Shown: piece by piece, positions 12,571 through 41,260 of the stretch
How positions within the stretch are numbered: position 1 is the first letter of the stretch
How the letters are laid out: each line of letters starts with the position of its first letter
Source: an uncultured Clostridia bacterium
Lineage (GTDB): Bacteria; Bacillota; Clostridia; Oscillospirales; JAAYOS01
Assembly (NCBI GenBank): GCA_947630675.1
Contig: CANRIN010000011.1
Coordinates: forward strand, 1-41,260
Length of the DNA stretch: 41,260 nucleotides
Direction: 5' to 3'
Program-made: the position numbers and the translations under genes
Notes under the pieces: generated by a model
Seen by the model: only the letters and a program-made list of their open reading frames with translations
Database searches by the model: none
Told to the model about the DNA's origin: nothing

Positions 12571-12721
12571 GCCGGCTTGTCAAAAACCTCGTAGAGAATG
12601 CGCCCGTCAACATATACCGCACTGAACCTTCTACCGGGCGCATCAGCTTTCGGCGTGAAACGCCGAAAGCCCAACTTTCTGCTAATCGAAGGGCGCCAAT
12701 AGGCGCGAAATAGAGTCAAAT
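12571..12721. other. Intergenic segment with a GAA-loop hairpin
   Basis: No convincing gene. GCTTTCGGCGT-GAA-ACGCCGAAAGC near 12651-12675 is a perfect 11-bp hairpin. It shares its core GGCGT-GAA-ACGCC with the hairpin at 34825-34855. Confidence 0.6.
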
Positions 12722-14867: not shown

Positions 14868-15050
14868 GGCGCGAAATGTGCTCGGGCGATAAATCGCCCT
14901 GCGCACCCTTTCGCGCTGAGGGCACCGGACAGAGCTTTGCTCTGCCGGTGCCTTGCGCTCCGCTACGCGCCGAGTTTTCCGCCTTCGGCGAAAAATCGAC
15001 GCACGCTCCGCGAGAAGTATTTTTCCCGACGTACACGCCGTCGGGAAAAA
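14868..15050 (+). repeat. Composite hairpin element, copy 2
   Basis: Starts 6 nt after the GtaA-like stop. Module A: nested stems GCGCGAAA/TTTCGCGC (14869-14876, 14909-14916), GTGC/GCAC and GGGCGAT/ATCGCCC (14884-14890, 14893-14899). Module B: 14921-14952, 8 bp, bulged A, 6 bp, TTT loop. Module C: 14955-15003, which matches 34725-34773 over 49 bases with one difference. Module D: 11-bp arms (15020-15030, 15040-15050) around the loop GTACACGCC. Confidence 0.85.
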
Positions 15051-29978: not shown

Positions 29979-29984
29979 ACACAA

Positions 29985-30239
29985 TCGCGGCGAATCGCAC
30001 TCGCGGACGACCCATTTCATGCAATGTCGGGACGTCGGCGCGAAGCGCCGAGGTCTGATGCGCCCGGTAGGCATCCGGATGAGGTATCGGTTTGCAAGCG
30101 CATTTTTACCAATTCGCCGCGAGACCACCGAACAGGACAAAGCCCTGTCGGTGGCGAGCACCCGGCTTTGTCCCTCGCTACGCTCGAAACACGCCGGGCG
30201 ATAGGTGTAAATTTCGCCGTACACGCCGCCGAAATTTAC
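29985..30239 (+). repeat. Composite hairpin element, copy 3
   Basis: Module A: outer stem TCGCGGCGAAT/ATTCGCCGCGA (29985-29995, 30112-30122) with a long inner part that includes TCGGCGC-GAA-GCGCCGA (30035-30051). Module B: 30125-30154, 7 bp, bulged A, 6 positions with one mismatch, AAA loop. Module C is divergent. Module D: 10-bp arms GTAAATTTCG/CGAAATTTAC (30207-30216, 30230-30239) with the conserved GTACACGCC in the loop. Confidence 0.8.
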
Positions 30240-30298
30240 TGATTGGAATCTATTTTGCGCCTGTCGGCGCGAAACTTTACAAAGTCTTTCGACAAGAT

Positions 30299-30321
30299 GG
30301 GCAGGAGGATGTATCCTGCCC
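30299..30321 (+). promoter_or_regulatory. Leader hairpin upstream of uxaC
   Basis: GGGCAGGA pairs with TCCTGCCC across a seven-base loop, about 45 nt ahead of uxaC. No T-run follows. It may be part of a leader or mark the end of the upstream operon. No clear promoter was identified in the gap. Confidence 0.4.
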
Positions 30322-30367
30322 TGATGTCTACCTGATGTATAGATGTATATAAGTAAGGAGCGCAGAA

Positions 30368-32570: not shown

Positions 32571-33424
32571 TGACCGATTTCAGACTTTGTGCGTTTGCCG
32601 ACGAGGCGTCGGGAGACCTCGCGGGGCAGATCGAGGCGCTCCGACGGAACGGTATGCGCCTTATAGAGATACGGAACGTCGGGCGGAAGGCCGTCACCGA
32701 CCTCTCGGACGAAGAGCTGGACGACGTCGCGAAGACCCTTCATGCCGCGGGCATAGAGGTGTGGAGCATCGGGTCGCCGCTCGGCAAGACACGCCTTGAG
32801 GACACGGAGGAGAACCGCCGCCGCTTCGAGCGGTCTGTAGAGGCGGCAAAGCGCCTCGGCACGACGCAGGTGAGGATGTTCAGCTACTATGTCTCCGAGG
32901 AGGAGGCGGACGGAACGGCGGACGCGATATTCGCGGAGCTCCGGCGGATGGCGGAGCTCGCCGAAAAGGAGGGCATCCTTCTCTGCCATGAGAATGAGAA
33001 GGGAATATACGGCGCGACGGCGGAACGGACTCTCCGCCTGCTCGAGGCCGTGCCGCCGCTCGGCTCGGTCTTCGACCCGGCAAACTACATACAGTGCGGC
33101 GAGCGTCCGGACGCGATCTTCCCGCGCTTTGCCGCGAGGACGACCTATCTGCACATCAAGGACGCGCTCGCTGAGGACGGCACGGTCGTGCCGTCCGGCG
33201 AGGGGGACGGAGGCGTCGCGAAGATAATAGACATGTTCGCGGAGAAGGGGAGCGGGCGCGTGCTCACGCTCGAACCGCACCTTTTCAGCTTCATCGGGCT
33301 GAAGAACTTACAGACCGAGGAACTGCGGCACAAATTCAGCTACTCCACGCCGGGCGAGGCTTTCGACGCCGGCGCGGACGCGCTGAAAGGAATACTTGAC
33401 AGAGGAGGATACAGCTATGAGTGA
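32570..33424 (+). CDS. Sugar phosphate isomerase/epimerase (TIM barrel) 2
   Basis: A 284-residue TIM barrel, a distant relative of the preceding gene. Likely metal ligands are Glu in CHENEKGIYG, Asp in SVFDPANYIQCG, His in YLHIKDA and Glu in TLEPHLFSF. Its ATG overlaps the upstream stop by one base. Two adjacent members of this family with little mutual identity suggest successive steps or different substrates. It overlaps the oxidoreductase by 8 nt. Confidence 0.87.
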   Translation: MTDFRLCAFADEASGDLAGQIEALRRNGMRLIEIRNVGRKAVTDLSDEELDDVAKTLHAAGIEVWSIGSPLGKTRLEDTEENRRRFERSVEAAKRLGTTQVRMFSYYVSEEEADGTADAIFAELRRMAELAEKEGILLCHENEKGIYGATAERTLRLLEAVPPLGSVFDPANYIQCGERPDAIFPRFAARTTYLHIKDALAEDGTVVPSGEGDGGVAKIIDMFAEKGSGRVLTLEPHLFSFIGLKNLQTEELRHKFSYSTPGEAFDAGADALKGILDRGGYSYE

Positions 33425-34592
33425 ACTGAACGTAGGCATCATCGGCATAGGCAACATGGGAAGCGCTCATTCAAAAAACATCCTTGCGGGCAAGGTAGAG
33501 GGCATGCGCCTTGCGGCGGTGTGCGACATCTCACCCGCGAAGCTCGACTGGGCTAAGGAAAATCTGCCGGACGTACCGCGCTTCTCGGACGCGCATGAGA
33601 TGATAAAGAGCGGGCTCATCGACACGATGATCGTCGCGACGCCGCACTACTTCCATCCGCCGCTTGCGATGGCGGGCTTCGACGCGGGGCTGAACGTGCT
33701 CATAGAGAAGCCGGCGGGCGTGTACACTTCCGCCGTCGAGAAGATGAACGAGGCGGCGAAGAAGAGCGGAAAGGTTTTCGGGATAATGTTCAACCAGCGC
33801 ACGAACCCGCAGTTCCGCAAGATACGCGAGATGATACGCTCCGGCGAGATAGGCGAGCCGAAGCGCCTCGTGTGGATAATCACAAACTGGTACCGTACCC
33901 AGAGCTATTACGACTCCGGCTCGTGGCGCGCCACATGGGCGGGCGAGGGCGGCGGCGTCCTGCTGAATCAGGCCCCGCACCAGCTCGACCTCTGGCAGTG
34001 GATGTTCGGCATGCCGCAGAGAGTCTGGGCGCGCTGCCGCTACGGTCACTGGCACAACGTCGAGATAGAGGATGACGTGACTGCTTACGCCGAGTACGAC
34101 AACGGCGCGAGCGCGACCTTCATAACTACCACCGGCGAGTATCCCGGCACGAACCGCCTAGAGATAAGCGGCGACCGGGCGAAGCTCGTCTGGGAGGGCG
34201 GAAAGCTTCACATGTGGAAGCTTGACGAGCCGGAGCGTGAGGTCTGCTTTACATCAAAGCAGGGCTTCGCGACGCCGCCCGTCACCGAGCTCGAGCCGGA
34301 GTGTCCCGGCGTCGAGACCGCGCACGTCGGCATACTTCAGAACTTTGCGAACGCCGTTCTGCACGGCGAGGAGCTGATAGCTCCCGGCTATGACGGCATA
34401 AACGGCCTCACCCTCTCGAACGCCATGCACCTCAGCGACTGGACGGGAAAGATGGTCGAGCTGCCGCTTGACACCGAGCTCTTTGAGAGGTATCTTGACG
34501 AGCGCCGCAAAACCTCCAGGATAAAGGCGGAGGTCGAGGGCGCGCCGGAGGACATACGCGGCACCTACAACGACAGGTGGAATGTAAGATAA
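33417..34592 (+). CDS. Gfo/Idh/MocA-family oxidoreductase
   Basis: A 391-residue NAD(P)-dependent sugar oxidoreductase. The N-terminal Rossmann fold has VGIIGIGNMGSAHSKNI, and NVLIEKPAGVYTSA contains the family Glu-Lys-Pro motif with its catalytic-region Lys. The C-terminal beta-sheet domain carries GGVLLNQAPHQLDLWQWMFG, which includes the usual D/H region. ATG at 33417 is set by GGAGG 8 nt upstream. As the only redox enzyme of the cluster, it may reduce the keto-uronate from UxaC or oxidise a related sugar acid (inference). Confidence 0.93.
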   Translation: MSELNVGIIGIGNMGSAHSKNILAGKVEGMRLAAVCDISPAKLDWAKENLPDVPRFSDAHEMIKSGLIDTMIVATPHYFHPPLAMAGFDAGLNVLIEKPAGVYTSAVEKMNEAAKKSGKVFGIMFNQRTNPQFRKIREMIRSGEIGEPKRLVWIITNWYRTQSYYDSGSWRATWAGEGGGVLLNQAPHQLDLWQWMFGMPQRVWARCRYGHWHNVEIEDDVTAYAEYDNGASATFITTTGEYPGTNRLEISGDRAKLVWEGGKLHMWKLDEPEREVCFTSKQGFATPPVTELEPECPGVETAHVGILQNFANAVLHGEELIAPGYDGINGLTLSNAMHLSDWTGKMVELPLDTELFERYLDERRKTSRIKAEVEGAPEDIRGTYNDRWNVR

Positions 34593-34596
34593 AAAG

Positions 34597-34773
34597 TCGC
34601 GGCAAATTGCGGGCGCGGATTTCATCCGCGCCCTTACCAATTTGCCGCGAGACGTTCACTTGAAATTGCACAGGCGCAATTTCAAGTGAAGCTGTCGGGT
34701 AGGGCGAAGCCCTACCGACAGCAAGCGCTCCGCTACGCGCCGAGTTTTCCGCCTTCGGCGGAAAATCGACGCA
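34597..34773 (+). repeat. Composite hairpin element, copy 4 (modules A to C)
   Basis: Module A: perfect nested stems, outer 34598-34609/34638-34649 (12 bp) and inner 34611-34620/34624-34633 (10 bp, TTC loop). An extra 15-bp hairpin follows (34655-34669/34676-34690). Module B: 34691-34722, 8 bp, bulged G, 6 bp, GAA loop. Module C: 34725-34773, near identical to copy 2. Module D is missing and other hairpins follow instead. Module A starts 5 nt after the oxidoreductase stop and could terminate it. Confidence 0.85.
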
Positions 34774-34776
34774 ATT

Positions 34777-35225
34777 CCCAAACGGTCAGTAGACCGTTTG
34801 GGAGCCCTTCCGATTGAAATGCTTTCCCCAAGCGGCGTGAAACGCCGCTTGGGGAACCCTCTAATTGAAATGCTCGCCGGAAGTGAATTCCGGCTGCGCG
34901 ATGTTGCCTTTGGCAACATCAACCGCGCGAACCGGCGCGGAAACACGAGGGCACACACAAATTCTTCATCGGCACATATTCAGCCCTCGTGAGCTTTACC
35001 CGCTTCGCGGGCAAAGCCAAACACTGTACAGAATTGCCTGCGCGAAGTTGCTTGCCATAGGCAAGCAACTTTAACCGCTGCGAACAGCGAGGGCTCAAGC
35101 CAATTCTTTATCCGACATTCTACCGCCATCGCCAGCAATATTCGCTTTGCGAATATTGCCCGACATTGAGCTAATTAGAATGCGAACCGCCTTCGGCGGA
35201 AAATCGACGCACGCGCCGCGAAGTA
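34777..35225. repeat. Tandem array of unrelated perfect hairpins
   Basis: At least seven hairpins in a row, no gene. CCCAAACGGTC at 34777-34802; a 15-bp stem with GAA loop at 34824-34856; GCCGGAA at 34876-34894; GATGTTGCC with TTT loop at 34900-34920; GCTTT-CCCGC with TTC loop at 34993-35017; a 12-bp stem with ATA loop at 35045-35071; GCAATATTCGC with TTT loop at 35135-35159. The linkers share ATTGAAATGCT (34813 and 34864). It ends with a partial module C (35187-35225). Confidence 0.8.
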
Positions 35226-35300: not shown

Positions 35301-35339
35301 AAAAAGGCGTGCGGAATATCCTGTTCCGCACGCCTTTTT
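35301..35339. terminator. Bidirectional terminator 3' of the GH106-like gene
   Basis: A 16-bp perfect stem (35301-35316 and 35324-35339) with A5/T5 flanks, 14 nt past the stop of the minus-strand gene. Confidence 0.92.
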
Positions 35340-35353
35340 GCGTTTTCATAATG

Positions 35354-38032
35354 TCAGAATTTAAGCACGGGATCGCGGAGCAGGCCGGACGGCACGGTGA
35401 ACTCCGCGCCGGTGAAGTAGCTCGGCGCGGCGCCGCTCATGGCGTTTGCGAGCGTATTCGTGACCTCTATCGCGATATGGTTCCTGCCGGAGACAAGGCG
35501 GCCGGAGCAGTTGAAGCGGTAGGGCGGCGCTATGCGCGAGCCGGCCTTTTCGCCGTTTATCCAGACCTCGGCAAACTCAAACGCCTCCGGAAGCTCTAGC
35601 ACGGCGTCATCGTGCGCGCGGTCGAGCGTGAAGTCGAGCTCATACCGCGCCGTGCCGGCAAAGCCGGGCTTCAGCACTTCAAGGTTCTGAAGCTCGGTCA
35701 TCCTTATCGCGCCGGAGAAGGTCGGGTACTCCTTAGCGGAGGCGAAGGCGACCGTCCACTCGCCACTGAGAGTGAGCGAGCTGCCGGTGAGCTTCGGGGT
35801 GCGGGCGACAAGCCCGATGGCATCCTCCGCAAAGTCGACTATCACCGACTCGTAGGGTTCGAGGCGGAGACGCACCGAGACCCCTCCGTCGCCTTCGCGG
35901 AAGTCCGCCGCGCGGAGGACGTTTTCGTATCCGTCATAGATGACAGGCGTTCCGGAGACGGGGAAGAACACCTCGCCGTCGAACACGTCTCCCGCGCTCT
36001 CGTTTGAGAGCATGTAGAGGTGGTCGCCCTTCTCGTAGTGGTAGACGCGGAGGTCGGGGAAGAAGCGGTCGGGCGTGACCTCCGCAAGTCCCTTCTTTAT
36101 GAGAATGTCCGCGAGCGCATCGGTCGGGACGACCTCCGCCGCGCGAAGGCCCTCGAACGCGGCGGCGTTCTCCTCGGTAGAGCCGCCGAGGACGCCGAGC
36201 GGCATCCTCTCGGTGATGTACACGGCAAAGCCGGACTTCGCCGCCTCCGCCGCGAACCTTGCCGCATGGTACGGGACGTAGTCGCAGCCGGGGATTATGA
36301 GACAGTCGTAGACTTCGTCCGCGACATGGAGGCGTCCGTCGAAGGAGTGCGGATAGCCCTCGCGGTCGTCCCAGACGTCGGAGGGGAGGAAGTCGAAGTC
36401 TATCTGACGCTCCGCGAGCGCCCGCGCGGGCTTCTGCATGAACTGAACGTCGCCCATCCACTGGCTCTCGCCGTGGTAGAGTATCGCCGCGCGGCAGCGG
36501 TGCGTGCCGCCCGAGAGGATGTGGCACATCCTGTTCATGTACCGCGCAAGCAGCCCGAAGGGACGGTAGAGCGGGTTGTTCCCGCGCGCGTAGAAGTGCG
36601 GCGGGCAGTCCGGGTCGGGGTACTCCATCGGGGAGAAGGCGTGCGGGACGAAGCGGTTCGTGCCGCGCACGAGGAAGTGGTCGGCAAGGTACTTCATCAG
36701 GCGCGTGCCTTCGCTCCAGCCGTAAGCGCCGAATATCTCGCACATCGTTCTCCCCTCCTTGCGCGGGTCGATGTGCCCGAGCGAGGAGCCGAGCTTGCCG
36801 AGCGCGTAGTGGTAGAACTCGCAGTCGCGGTCGCTGAAGAACCCGGCGCGCCTGCCACTGCCGCCGCCGAAGGTGACCTGTCCGCCGATGTCGTCAATGC
36901 CGGACATGTGCTGGCCGCGCAGCGCGCGGAAGAAGTGACCCATGCTCGAGCCGAGGCGGGCGTGCTGATTCTCATCCTCGATGATGTGGCCGATGTACTC
37001 GACGCCGCGCTCCGCGCACCAGTCGCCGATGGCTCGGCTGAAGTTGCGCTCGATAAGCCTCGTGAGCGCGTCCATATATGCGCGGCGGACTTCCGCCGTG
37101 TGTGCCCTGTCCGAGGTCTCGCGCCAGAGCGCGGGAAGATCCTCCTCAAACGTCCCGCCGAGCGACTTGCGCAGCGCGGAGATGAGCTCCTCGGAGTAGG
37201 GGAGAGCCATGTCGTTGCGGCCGATGTCCTCGTTGAACATGAAGCCGACGCAGTTGTCTATGCAGGGCTCGTCCGAGAAGAAGCCCGCTATCGTCTTGCC
37301 AAACTCCGCAGAATAGTGCTCCCAGTGCGGCTCGTAGACCGCGGAGATCTGGAGCGCGGCGCTCTCCGCATCCGCCCAGTTGAGGTAGCTCGCGCGTCCG
37401 CCGCCGGTGCGGCTCACTACTATGAAGAAGACGCGCCATTCGCCGCCCGGAACGTCCCATGTGAGGACGCCGTCCGATATGTATTCGTCGAGCAGGACGG
37501 CCTCGCCGAGTGACCCGTCCCGCTCCATACGCCGCGCGACGGCGGCGAAGAGAAAGTCGTCCTTGGGGAGCTCGGGACTGACGAGCCCGTTGCTCATCAT
37601 GGCCGACAGGTCAAAGCCCATGCTCGGCATGGCAGGAGGATTCAGCAGCGAGCCGACGTTGAACCTTGCTCCGGGCAGAGGACCAACGACGATGACCTCG
37701 TTGAACTTGAGATACTGCTTTGTCTTGTCGGCGTTGCCCTTGGCGAGCGCGCCGTTAGCGTAGCCGGTGGGGAAGTGCGCGTCGTCAAGTATCCAGACCT
37801 TCATGCCGCGCTTCTTCGCCTCGTCGAGTATGATGTCCATGTCGTGCCACCAGCCGTCGCCGCAGAAGTCGGGGTGCGGGCGCGCCTCGACGCAGAACGC
37901 CTCGATGCCGCACTCCTGTATCTTTGCTATCTCCTCACGCAGGACGGACTCGCTTTCACCGTGCTGCCAGAAAAAGGGAAGAAGATAGTTCCCGTTTTCA
38001 CCGCGCAGGGCTTCAAGAATGCTCTTTTCCAT
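35354..38032 (-). CDS. GH106-like glycoside hydrolase
   Basis: An 892-residue glycosidase resembling family GH106 (alpha-L-rhamnosidases) and its relatives. The TIM-barrel start LLPFFWQHGESESVLREEI, then MKVWILDDAHFPTGYANG, is typical. GFFSDEPCIDN (about 251-260), IGHIIEDENQHA (about 347-358) and CEIFGAYGWSEG (431-442) hold likely active-site acids. The C-terminal about 90 residues form a GH2-like jelly-roll sugar-binding domain with AEVWINGEKAG and GRNHIAIEVTN. There is no signal peptide, so it should act in the cytoplasm on imported oligosaccharides. Family is clear; substrate is not, and rhamnose is only the family default. Confidence 0.82.
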   Translation of the reverse strand: MEKSILEALRGENGNYLLPFFWQHGESESVLREEIAKIQECGIEAFCVEARPHPDFCGDGWWHDMDIILDEAKKRGMKVWILDDAHFPTGYANGALAKGNADKTKQYLKFNEVIVVGPLPGARFNVGSLLNPPAMPSMGFDLSAMMSNGLVSPELPKDDFLFAAVARRMERDGSLGEAVLLDEYISDGVLTWDVPGGEWRVFFIVVSRTGGGRASYLNWADAESAALQISAVYEPHWEHYSAEFGKTIAGFFSDEPCIDNCVGFMFNEDIGRNDMALPYSEELISALRKSLGGTFEEDLPALWRETSDRAHTAEVRRAYMDALTRLIERNFSRAIGDWCAERGVEYIGHIIEDENQHARLGSSMGHFFRALRGQHMSGIDDIGGQVTFGGGSGRRAGFFSDRDCEFYHYALGKLGSSLGHIDPRKEGRTMCEIFGAYGWSEGTRLMKYLADHFLVRGTNRFVPHAFSPMEYPDPDCPPHFYARGNNPLYRPFGLLARYMNRMCHILSGGTHRCRAAILYHGESQWMGDVQFMQKPARALAERQIDFDFLPSDVWDDREGYPHSFDGRLHVADEVYDCLIIPGCDYVPYHAARFAAEAAKSGFAVYITERMPLGVLGGSTEENAAAFEGLRAAEVVPTDALADILIKKGLAEVTPDRFFPDLRVYHYEKGDHLYMLSNESAGDVFDGEVFFPVSGTPVIYDGYENVLRAADFREGDGGVSVRLRLEPYESVIVDFAEDAIGLVARTPKLTGSSLTLSGEWTVAFASAKEYPTFSGAIRMTELQNLEVLKPGFAGTARYELDFTLDRAHDDAVLELPEAFEFAEVWINGEKAGSRIAPPYRFNCSGRLVSGRNHIAIEVTNTLANAMSGAAPSYFTGAEFTVPSGLLRDPVLKF

Positions 38033-40499: not shown

Positions 40500-40848
40500 A
40501 ATTTGCAGGCAGAGCCCACGCCGCATAGCGGGGAAGCCCCCGCAAGCAAGCGGGCAGAGCCCACACCCCTCTAGCGGGGAAGCCCCCGCCGGTATCTGCG
40601 GGGGCGACCCCCGCGTCCCATCAGCGGGCGGAGCCCGCGACCTCTTTACTTATACGAAGTAAAACTTCGAGGTATTATTCGGAACCTAGAGGTTCCGGCA
40701 CATTTGCGGGGCTGTGCCGCCCCACCCCCATCCAGCGGGGAAGCCCCGCAGGTATCTGCGGGGGCGACCCCCGCGTCCTTGGTAGAGCGGAGCTCTACCG
40801 ACACTTTGCGGGGCTGTGCCGCCCCGCGCCCCTGCGTTACTTTTTGCT
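40500..40848 (+). repeat. GC-rich palindromic 3'-flanking repeat, right copy
   Basis: Begins just after the GH2 stop and resembles the reverse complement of 1-184. The block TATCTGCGGGGGCGACCCCC recurs inside it (near 40593 and 40752), so it holds about 160-bp tandem units. Hairpins include GGTAGAGC-GGA-GCTCTACC (40781-40799) and GGAACC/GGTTCC near 40681-40696. No gene. Confidence 0.75.
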
Positions 40849-40905
40849 CGCGCAAAAAGTAACCAAAAACGCGCTTAAGGGAGAGGGCTCCGCCCTCTCC
40901 CTTAA
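40836..40905. repeat. Two perfect hairpins at the edge of the GC-rich repeat
   Basis: GTTACTTTTTGC pairs with GCAAAAAGTAAC (40836-40847, 40852-40863; 12 bp). TTAAGGGAGAGGGC pairs with GCCCTCTCCCTTAA (40875-40888, 40892-40905; 14 bp) with a three-base TCC loop. Confidence 0.85.
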
Positions 40906-41143
40906 TAAACCCTCTCCCTATACAGACACAACACCATTACCCCCAGAGTATGACGATATTCTGTATCAAACAAATCTATCATCCGACCGGGTGAGTTTCT
41001 ATCCGACTTTCCCCATACATTCGACAACATCGAACGATTCCTGCGTCGTAGAGTCAAAAAGTCCGGTTCAACGCTCCAGCTATAGGCGTAATGCAGAGAG
41101 TACCCCAAGAAAACGGAACTGTCGGTTCTATGCAGAAAGTATA
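40906..41143. other. Non-coding or decayed segment
   Basis: Less GC-rich than its surroundings, with only short frames on both strands and no recognisable family. I see no promoter or RNA gene. Confidence 0.4.
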
Positions 41144-41173
41144 AGCGGGGAAGCTGATACCAGCTTCCCCGCT
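41144..41173. repeat. 13-bp perfect hairpin
   Basis: AGCGGGGAAGCTG (41144-41156) pairs with CAGCTTCCCCGCT (41161-41173), loop ATAC. No T-run follows. Confidence 0.8.
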
Positions 41174-41213
41174 CTTGGTGCGCGGTAGAGACTCAATATG
41201 TAGAAAGAGGGGT

Positions 41214-41256
41214 ACATAGGGGAGAAAACTTGGTTTTCTCCCCTATGTGTGTTTTT
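41214..41256 (+). terminator. Strong rho-independent terminator
   Basis: A 16-bp perfect stem (41214-41229 and 41233-41248) with a TTG loop, followed by GTGTTTTT. It points rightward, so a transcript enters it from inside the window, perhaps readthrough from the GH2 gene, or an unrecognised RNA from 40906-41213. Confidence 0.85.
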
Positions 41257-41260
41257 GGCT

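Follow-up and report, generated by a model that had tools for sequence, protein, structure and literature searches.

Small mobile repeats of bacteria, MITEs as well as ERIC, Correia, RUP and bcr, are known to leave either no target duplication or a short one of 2-14 bp. In two reviews (PMC2229807, PMC10969869) such repeats are non-autonomous, dispersed, insertion-polymorphic and foldable, and P, one of the hairpin units reported here, is like them in these respects; however, its duplications lie at stop codons and, in place of the short, fixed-length duplication of a DDE-type MITE, they vary and are mostly 28-110 bp long. The REP, BIME and REPIN elements (PMC3733652, PMC3116915, PMC2817692) share with our array the high copy number, the extragenic palindromes, the mosaic arrangement and the similar arms of the terminal hairpins, whereas here no Y1/RAYT gene was found in the genus, the stems vary while the linkers are conserved, and P has long target duplications. 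The words Firmicutes and Clostridi are absent from the GTAG/CGTC survey (PMC3733652), and no unpaired GTAG or CGTC end tag was conspicuous in the array by eye. Bacterial families of repeated, stem-loop containing sequences have been catalogued (PMC2267715, PMC1590033), and the array resembles them in this. Finally, Monttinen and Loytynoja 2022 (PMC8794818) described hairpins that replication template switching creates and maintains, with multi-base compensatory changes in both arms and without wobble intermediates; their study deals with RNA genes, whereas the hairpins considered here belong to mobile repeats and terminators of one bacterial lineage.

The window is the whole 41,260-nt stretch of DNA that was analysed, from an uncultured Clostridia bacterium, and the array occupies positions 34597-35225. 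Its elements work like REPs and MITEs, as small non-autonomous palindromic repeats, and differ from REP/RAYT systems and DDE-type MITEs in defining features. We lean towards the view that the array consists of nested hairpin elements of three kinds, A0, P and B, which are small, mobile and non-autonomous and accumulate between genes, and whose insertion and stem upkeep would proceed via fold-back and template switching. The mode of insertion is possibly new; no description of the element was found in open-access papers, which is a weak result, as most subscription journals and all bioRxiv preprints lie outside that scope.

Hairpin density and repeat units

Counting perfect hairpins with a stem of at least 8 and a loop of 3-8, we found nine at 34597-35225, against a mean of 0.09 and a maximum of 2 in 500 dinucleotide-preserving shuffles, and 42 in the whole window, against 3-12 per shuffle. 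In 416 kb of the window's genome, the 106.6 kb of predicted intergenic DNA hold 300 hairpins (15.2 after shuffling), with 147 three-base and 100 four-base loops (1.8 and 4.0 in shuffled intergenic DNA). The density is 2.8 per kb in intergenic and 0.33 per kb in coding DNA, values that are no genome average, since the 416 kb were partly picked for carrying arrays. Gene models were based on a hexamer coding score built in this analysis, and because they miss some genes the intergenic lengths are upper bounds.

The hairpin cluster noticed in a preliminary description of this DNA is therefore real, and a chance origin, which that description had also excluded, is ruled out by the shuffles of the window and of the 416 kb: the shuffled control that it had named as able to overturn its claim reproduced neither the density nor the loop spectrum. 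The loops it listed are present, and the two linkers in which it saw ATTGAAATGCT are both P linkers. Among the similar hairpins that it placed elsewhere, those at 72-90, 40781-40799 and 40875-40905 have exactly these coordinates; the one placed at 12651-12675 exists, at 12646-12670, the stem at 30035-30051 is only 7 bp long, and for 14921-14952 there are other strong hairpins around 14.9-15.4 kb. The stems, taken to be unrelated, turned out to be recurrent modules of dispersed repeats, and longer-range stems had been overlooked, namely the outer stem of 34597-34650 and the long-loop stems with arms CACGAGGGC/GCCCTCGTG and GCGAGGGC. The description was right that some process creates or favours the hairpins, and it named template switching, but it did not recognise the array as nested repeats that are dispersed and insertion-polymorphic; for this reason the hairpin density comes mostly from the spread of repeats and not from local creation of hairpins.

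Compared with its own genome (2.06 Mb, 107 contigs), the 629-bp array gave 123 matching pieces at about 40 loci, and a second hairpin-rich repeat at 40560-40910 gave 129. The array loci are mosaic and combine units of three types. A0 consists of hairpins in series, starting near CGCGGCRAATYGC and ending near CTCTGCGAGGC. P, of about 120-230 bp and with 3-5 hairpins, consists in order of a terminal hairpin, a linker ending in ATTGAAATGCTC, a 7-bp hairpin with the loop RTGAA, the bases TGCGC, a second hairpin and AACCGCGCGAAC, and its ends bear similar hairpin arms. In B, a centre of about 250-300 bp is flanked by inverted ends that are rich in hairpins; its copies are frequent at contig ends of this MAG, so B probably breaks the assembly. 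The A0 unit of the array has two P units nested inside it, one truncated and the other complete, and an exact 25-bp repeat lies on both sides of this pair (Table 1). A covariance model of P, R1, was built from the alignment A1 of 36 P cores, and it has 35 matches at E<1e-4 in the 416 kb of the window's genome.

Table 1. Features of the array, its flanking genes and further hairpin-rich sites of the window
Positions	Strand	Feature	Remark
33396-34592	+	Flanking gene, 398 aa, convergent with the next gene	
34597-34724	+	A0 unit, left part: nested hairpin 34597-34650, hairpins 34655-34690 and about 34694-34724	Recurs at many loci
34745-34765	+	A0 hairpin TTTTCCGCC-TTC-GGCGGAAAA	
34749-34773	+	25-bp direct repeat around the P run, left copy	
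34776-34823	+	Truncated P unit, comprising the terminal hairpin 34776-34803 and a linker that contains ATTGAAATGCT	
34824-34940	+	Complete P unit: terminal hairpin 34824-34856, P core 34856-34940 (R1, 97 bits)	
34941-35186	+	Extended P part: long-loop stems, hairpins 35045-35071 and 35135-35159, weaker R1 match 34986-35092	
35187-35211	+	25-bp direct repeat, right copy	
35301-35339	-	Terminator-like hairpin of the minus-strand gene	Ortholog kept in a relative without the array
35354-38032	-	Flanking gene, 892 aa	
12542-12964		A0-type stretch between two copies of the terminator hairpin CAAAGGACAGCG	One copy and no stretch in G001
29979-30331		Further hairpin-rich stretch	Same flanks: 44 bp in G003, a different array in G001
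40560-41260		B-type repeat, cut by the contig end	

The arrays lie between genes, with only 178 of 15,147 array-matched bases overlapping coding sequence. Convergent gaps make up 17 of the 43 array gaps and 3 of 94 other gaps, a comparison set that includes short within-operon gaps. Judged by eye, arrays in tandem gaps have no clear orientation preference, and no gene family was found to recur beside arrays. A single unique structured RNA was rejected as an explanation, the modules being dispersed, and no Rfam family reached its gathering score for the array. An origin from a phage or plasmid was rejected as well, the array having no match in the phage and plasmid collections.

Presence and absence among relatives

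Arrays are present in three of four congeneric genomes, whereas in G002, of the same genus and 93% complete, neither the 629-bp array nor R1 found a match. The gap that holds the array at 34.6 kb measures 27 bp in G001 against about 700 in the window's genome, and several other orthologous gaps of G001 have no A0, P or B stretch or a shorter one; at 12.5 kb, the terminator hairpin that stands on both sides of the A0 stretch is single there. Short remnants of array ends persist in some of these gaps, so arrays are lost as well as gained. At L078 (3040-6480), the ortholog of the 34.6-kb gap in a relative, we saw a different insert with what by eye are tyrosine-recombinase-like and pilin-like genes, adjoining a remnant that resembles the end of A0.

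Beyond the genus, a search with R1 found P in 27 of 295 genomes of the order, belonging to six families (f1, f9, f12, f13, f17 and f23), and the model makes the P family easy to find. With no more than 14 candidates scored per genome, eight f13 genomes have at least nine matches each. Outside the window's genus, P is mostly solitary and lies at gene 3' ends near the stop codon. At L211, L212 and L220, around position 1500, P stands at the same lepA-like gene end (by eye) in f13 and f12 genomes, which may be a hot spot or an old insertion.

Pairing and change in the stems

The paired positions of A1 comprise 880 cells, of which 867 are Watson-Crick, none G.T, six A.C and seven other, so that 98.5% are standard pairs. 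Both bases depart from the commonest pair in 125 cells, and in no cell does only one of them. As a control, slid structures pair in 34-46%. In 69 P units of other families, 1584 of 1630 cells are Watson-Crick, 10 G.T, 15 A.C and 21 other, a pairing that is flattered because this alignment was fitted to the model. The acceptor and T stems of tRNAs on the same contigs (only 8 tRNAs) gave 10 G.U among 96 pairs. The stems of P thus covary, but the G.U intermediates are nearly absent, with G.T in 0/880 and 10/1630 cells. Loops are hypervariable.

Tandem copies of P at one gene end of G000 have near-identical surroundings and different hairpins in the same slots. A comparison of orthologous 3'-end hairpins between G000 and G001, in which near-perfect pairing was required in both species and some hairpins of convergent genes were counted twice, gave 17 two-sided and 6 one-sided changes, and 18 of 24 loops differ. 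Taken together, the observations suggest replacement or rewriting of hairpins in which the two arms change simultaneously, as PMC8794818 describes for template switching in RNA genes. Because the stems form a limited repertoire, swapped hairpins could stem from recombination between paralogous copies, and recombination between copies can explain part of the joint change.

Three processes had been offered at the outset for the hairpins. As to repeat-driven inversion, hairpin flipping is at most minor: a single slot has loops as well as their reverse complements, though in unequal numbers. Template switching fares better: replacement of whole hairpins or copying of an arm at the DNA level fits well, template switching itself being read from footprints. 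As judged from the sequences, covarying stems with next to no wobble fit such DNA-level copying of arms better than ordinary RNA selection.

The third process, selection for RNA structure, would hold that the 3' regions are transcribed and that stems are kept for folding, in termination or stability, through ordinary compensatory mutations. Strong covariation is what it predicts, the minus strand of P is sense with the adjacent gene in most loci of other families, and convergent gaps are enriched among array gaps; yet in A1 the standard changes are 125 two-sided and none one-sided, and the arrays of tandem gaps have the lack of orientation preference mentioned above. The mismatches point both ways. 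In A1 they are of the A.C type, equivalent to G.U on the minus strand, with no G.T, and a strand asymmetry of this kind is seen in slots S3, S6, S8 and S10, while the bias of slot S11 is opposite; as proof of RNA selection, the asymmetry is weakened by S11 and by the tiny numbers of G.T and A.C. Both mismatches are below 1% each, against 10% G.U in the tRNA stems, and because G.U pairs are almost absent we consider that RNA selection in its ordinary form fits poorly and is unlikely to be the explanation.

Gene ends around P and its possible movement

In the flanks of P outside the window's genus, direct duplications score at least 25 in 37 of 58 units and are mostly 28-110 bp long, while flanks paired from different loci gave a 95th percentile of 12 and a maximum of 25.5; tandem-P or tRNA-repeat situations account for about five of the 37. 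Of 32 loci examined further, 25 have a gene on the minus strand of P whose stop codon lies at most 5 nt from the start of the duplication, and in two more it lies further off. The neighbouring gene is left whole by the insertion, with the stop codon sometimes supplied by the insert. The bases adjoining P on one side also reappear inverted on the other, and none of 5000 among-locus permutations reached the observed mean.

The clearest case is L261, where P of G139 lies between two identical 77-bp copies. In G089, G061 and G213 the counterparts of the two flanks of this P share 77 bp, and in G294 the overlap is 71 bp; therefore, four congeners hold the target once, without P, and at this locus P was inserted with duplication of its target. 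At the remaining loci target duplication is probable from comparison of the flanks. Within the window's genus, P units of G000 and G001 stand between two copies of a gene end, with lengths of 107, 106 and 53 bp, and a bracketing repeat scoring at least 18 was found for 12% of 91 P units, against 3.5% in mixed control pairs. No long target duplication was found for A0, so one mechanism need not cover all elements.

The copies of gene ends differ mostly at synonymous sites, and some duplications may for this reason include transferred DNA. This would suit remnants of integrative elements that entered at gene 3' ends by a recombinase and carried a replacement gene end, and so would the restoration of gene ends including the stop codon. 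However, the same P unit hits dozens of different genes, the inserts of about 120-230 bp have no gene inside, and at L261 the two copies are identical and three relatives have the same 77-bp target; we regard this origin as quite improbable.

Under the reading that we favour, mobile hairpin elements maintained by template switching, P would insert at a gene 3' end near the stop codon, for the most part in one orientation. It would duplicate its target, mostly over 28-110 bp, and add a short copy of it in inverted form; since the gene end is duplicated, the neighbouring gene would stay whole. Insertion and stem upkeep would both depend on replication that folds back and switches template: the nascent strand would pair with a hairpin arm, copy it and resume on an earlier stretch of the template. 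Such a process would explain why duplications are long and variable, why there is an inverted copy, why the two arms change jointly and why loops are hypervariable. We infer how P moves, template switching included, from these footprints and not from an observed insertion step. A further proposal, which we make tentatively and ourselves find doubtful, is that P is the first member of a novel class of mobile DNA lacking an enzyme of its own. Such a hairpin element would enter DNA under replication at gene 3' ends, via fold-back and template switching, would duplicate up to about 110 bp of target and add an inverted copy, and the same process would rewrite both arms of its stems in single events.

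If the favoured reading is right, these repeats are a natural system in which compensatory stem changes can be watched as single DNA-level events, and P is a mobile repeat whose long, variable target duplication misfits the usual footprints of transposases. It would also be a practical warning that covariation, usually taken to prove an RNA functional, can arise in such repeats with hardly any wobble pairs.

Known enzymes were searched for as drivers. The Y1 transposase (Y1_Tnp, PF01797) had no match in G000-G004, the control genomes being positive, and the reverse transcriptase RVT_1 (PF00078) was not detected in G000-G004, in the P-rich G294, or in G241 and G273. RAYT and RVT_1 were accordingly rejected as drivers in the window's genus; among P-carrying genomes of other families, some have RVT_1 or Y1 genes and others do not. 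Retroposition, in which a reverse transcriptase would copy P RNA into a nicked target and leave variable duplications as eukaryotic LINE/SINE elements do, would agree with the range of 28 to 110 bp and with the fixed orientation of P relative to the gene, but besides the missing RVT_1 in these eight genomes neither a poly-A nor a conserved 3' tail was seen on P, and we hold it to be very unlikely. REP/REPIN-like elements moved by a Y1 (RAYT) transposase would share the high-copy extragenic palindromes, the mosaics and the similar terminal hairpins, but with Y1_Tnp undetected in G000-G004 and long target duplications, to our knowledge, not expected of this enzyme class, this already disfavoured reading is scarcely credible. 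G002, which has no arrays, offers a contrast for finding the driver.

Two further observations concern other hairpin elements. Downstream of P at L205 and L210, the end of an infB-like gene (by eye) occurs a third time, beside a different hairpin element; duplication of gene ends may thus extend to further element families. At L183 (G000:C1:123360-123805), a tandem series of hairpins, TTATAGCATATCGC...GCGATATGCTATAA, whose linkers are identical and which G001 lacks, makes up another hairpin family.
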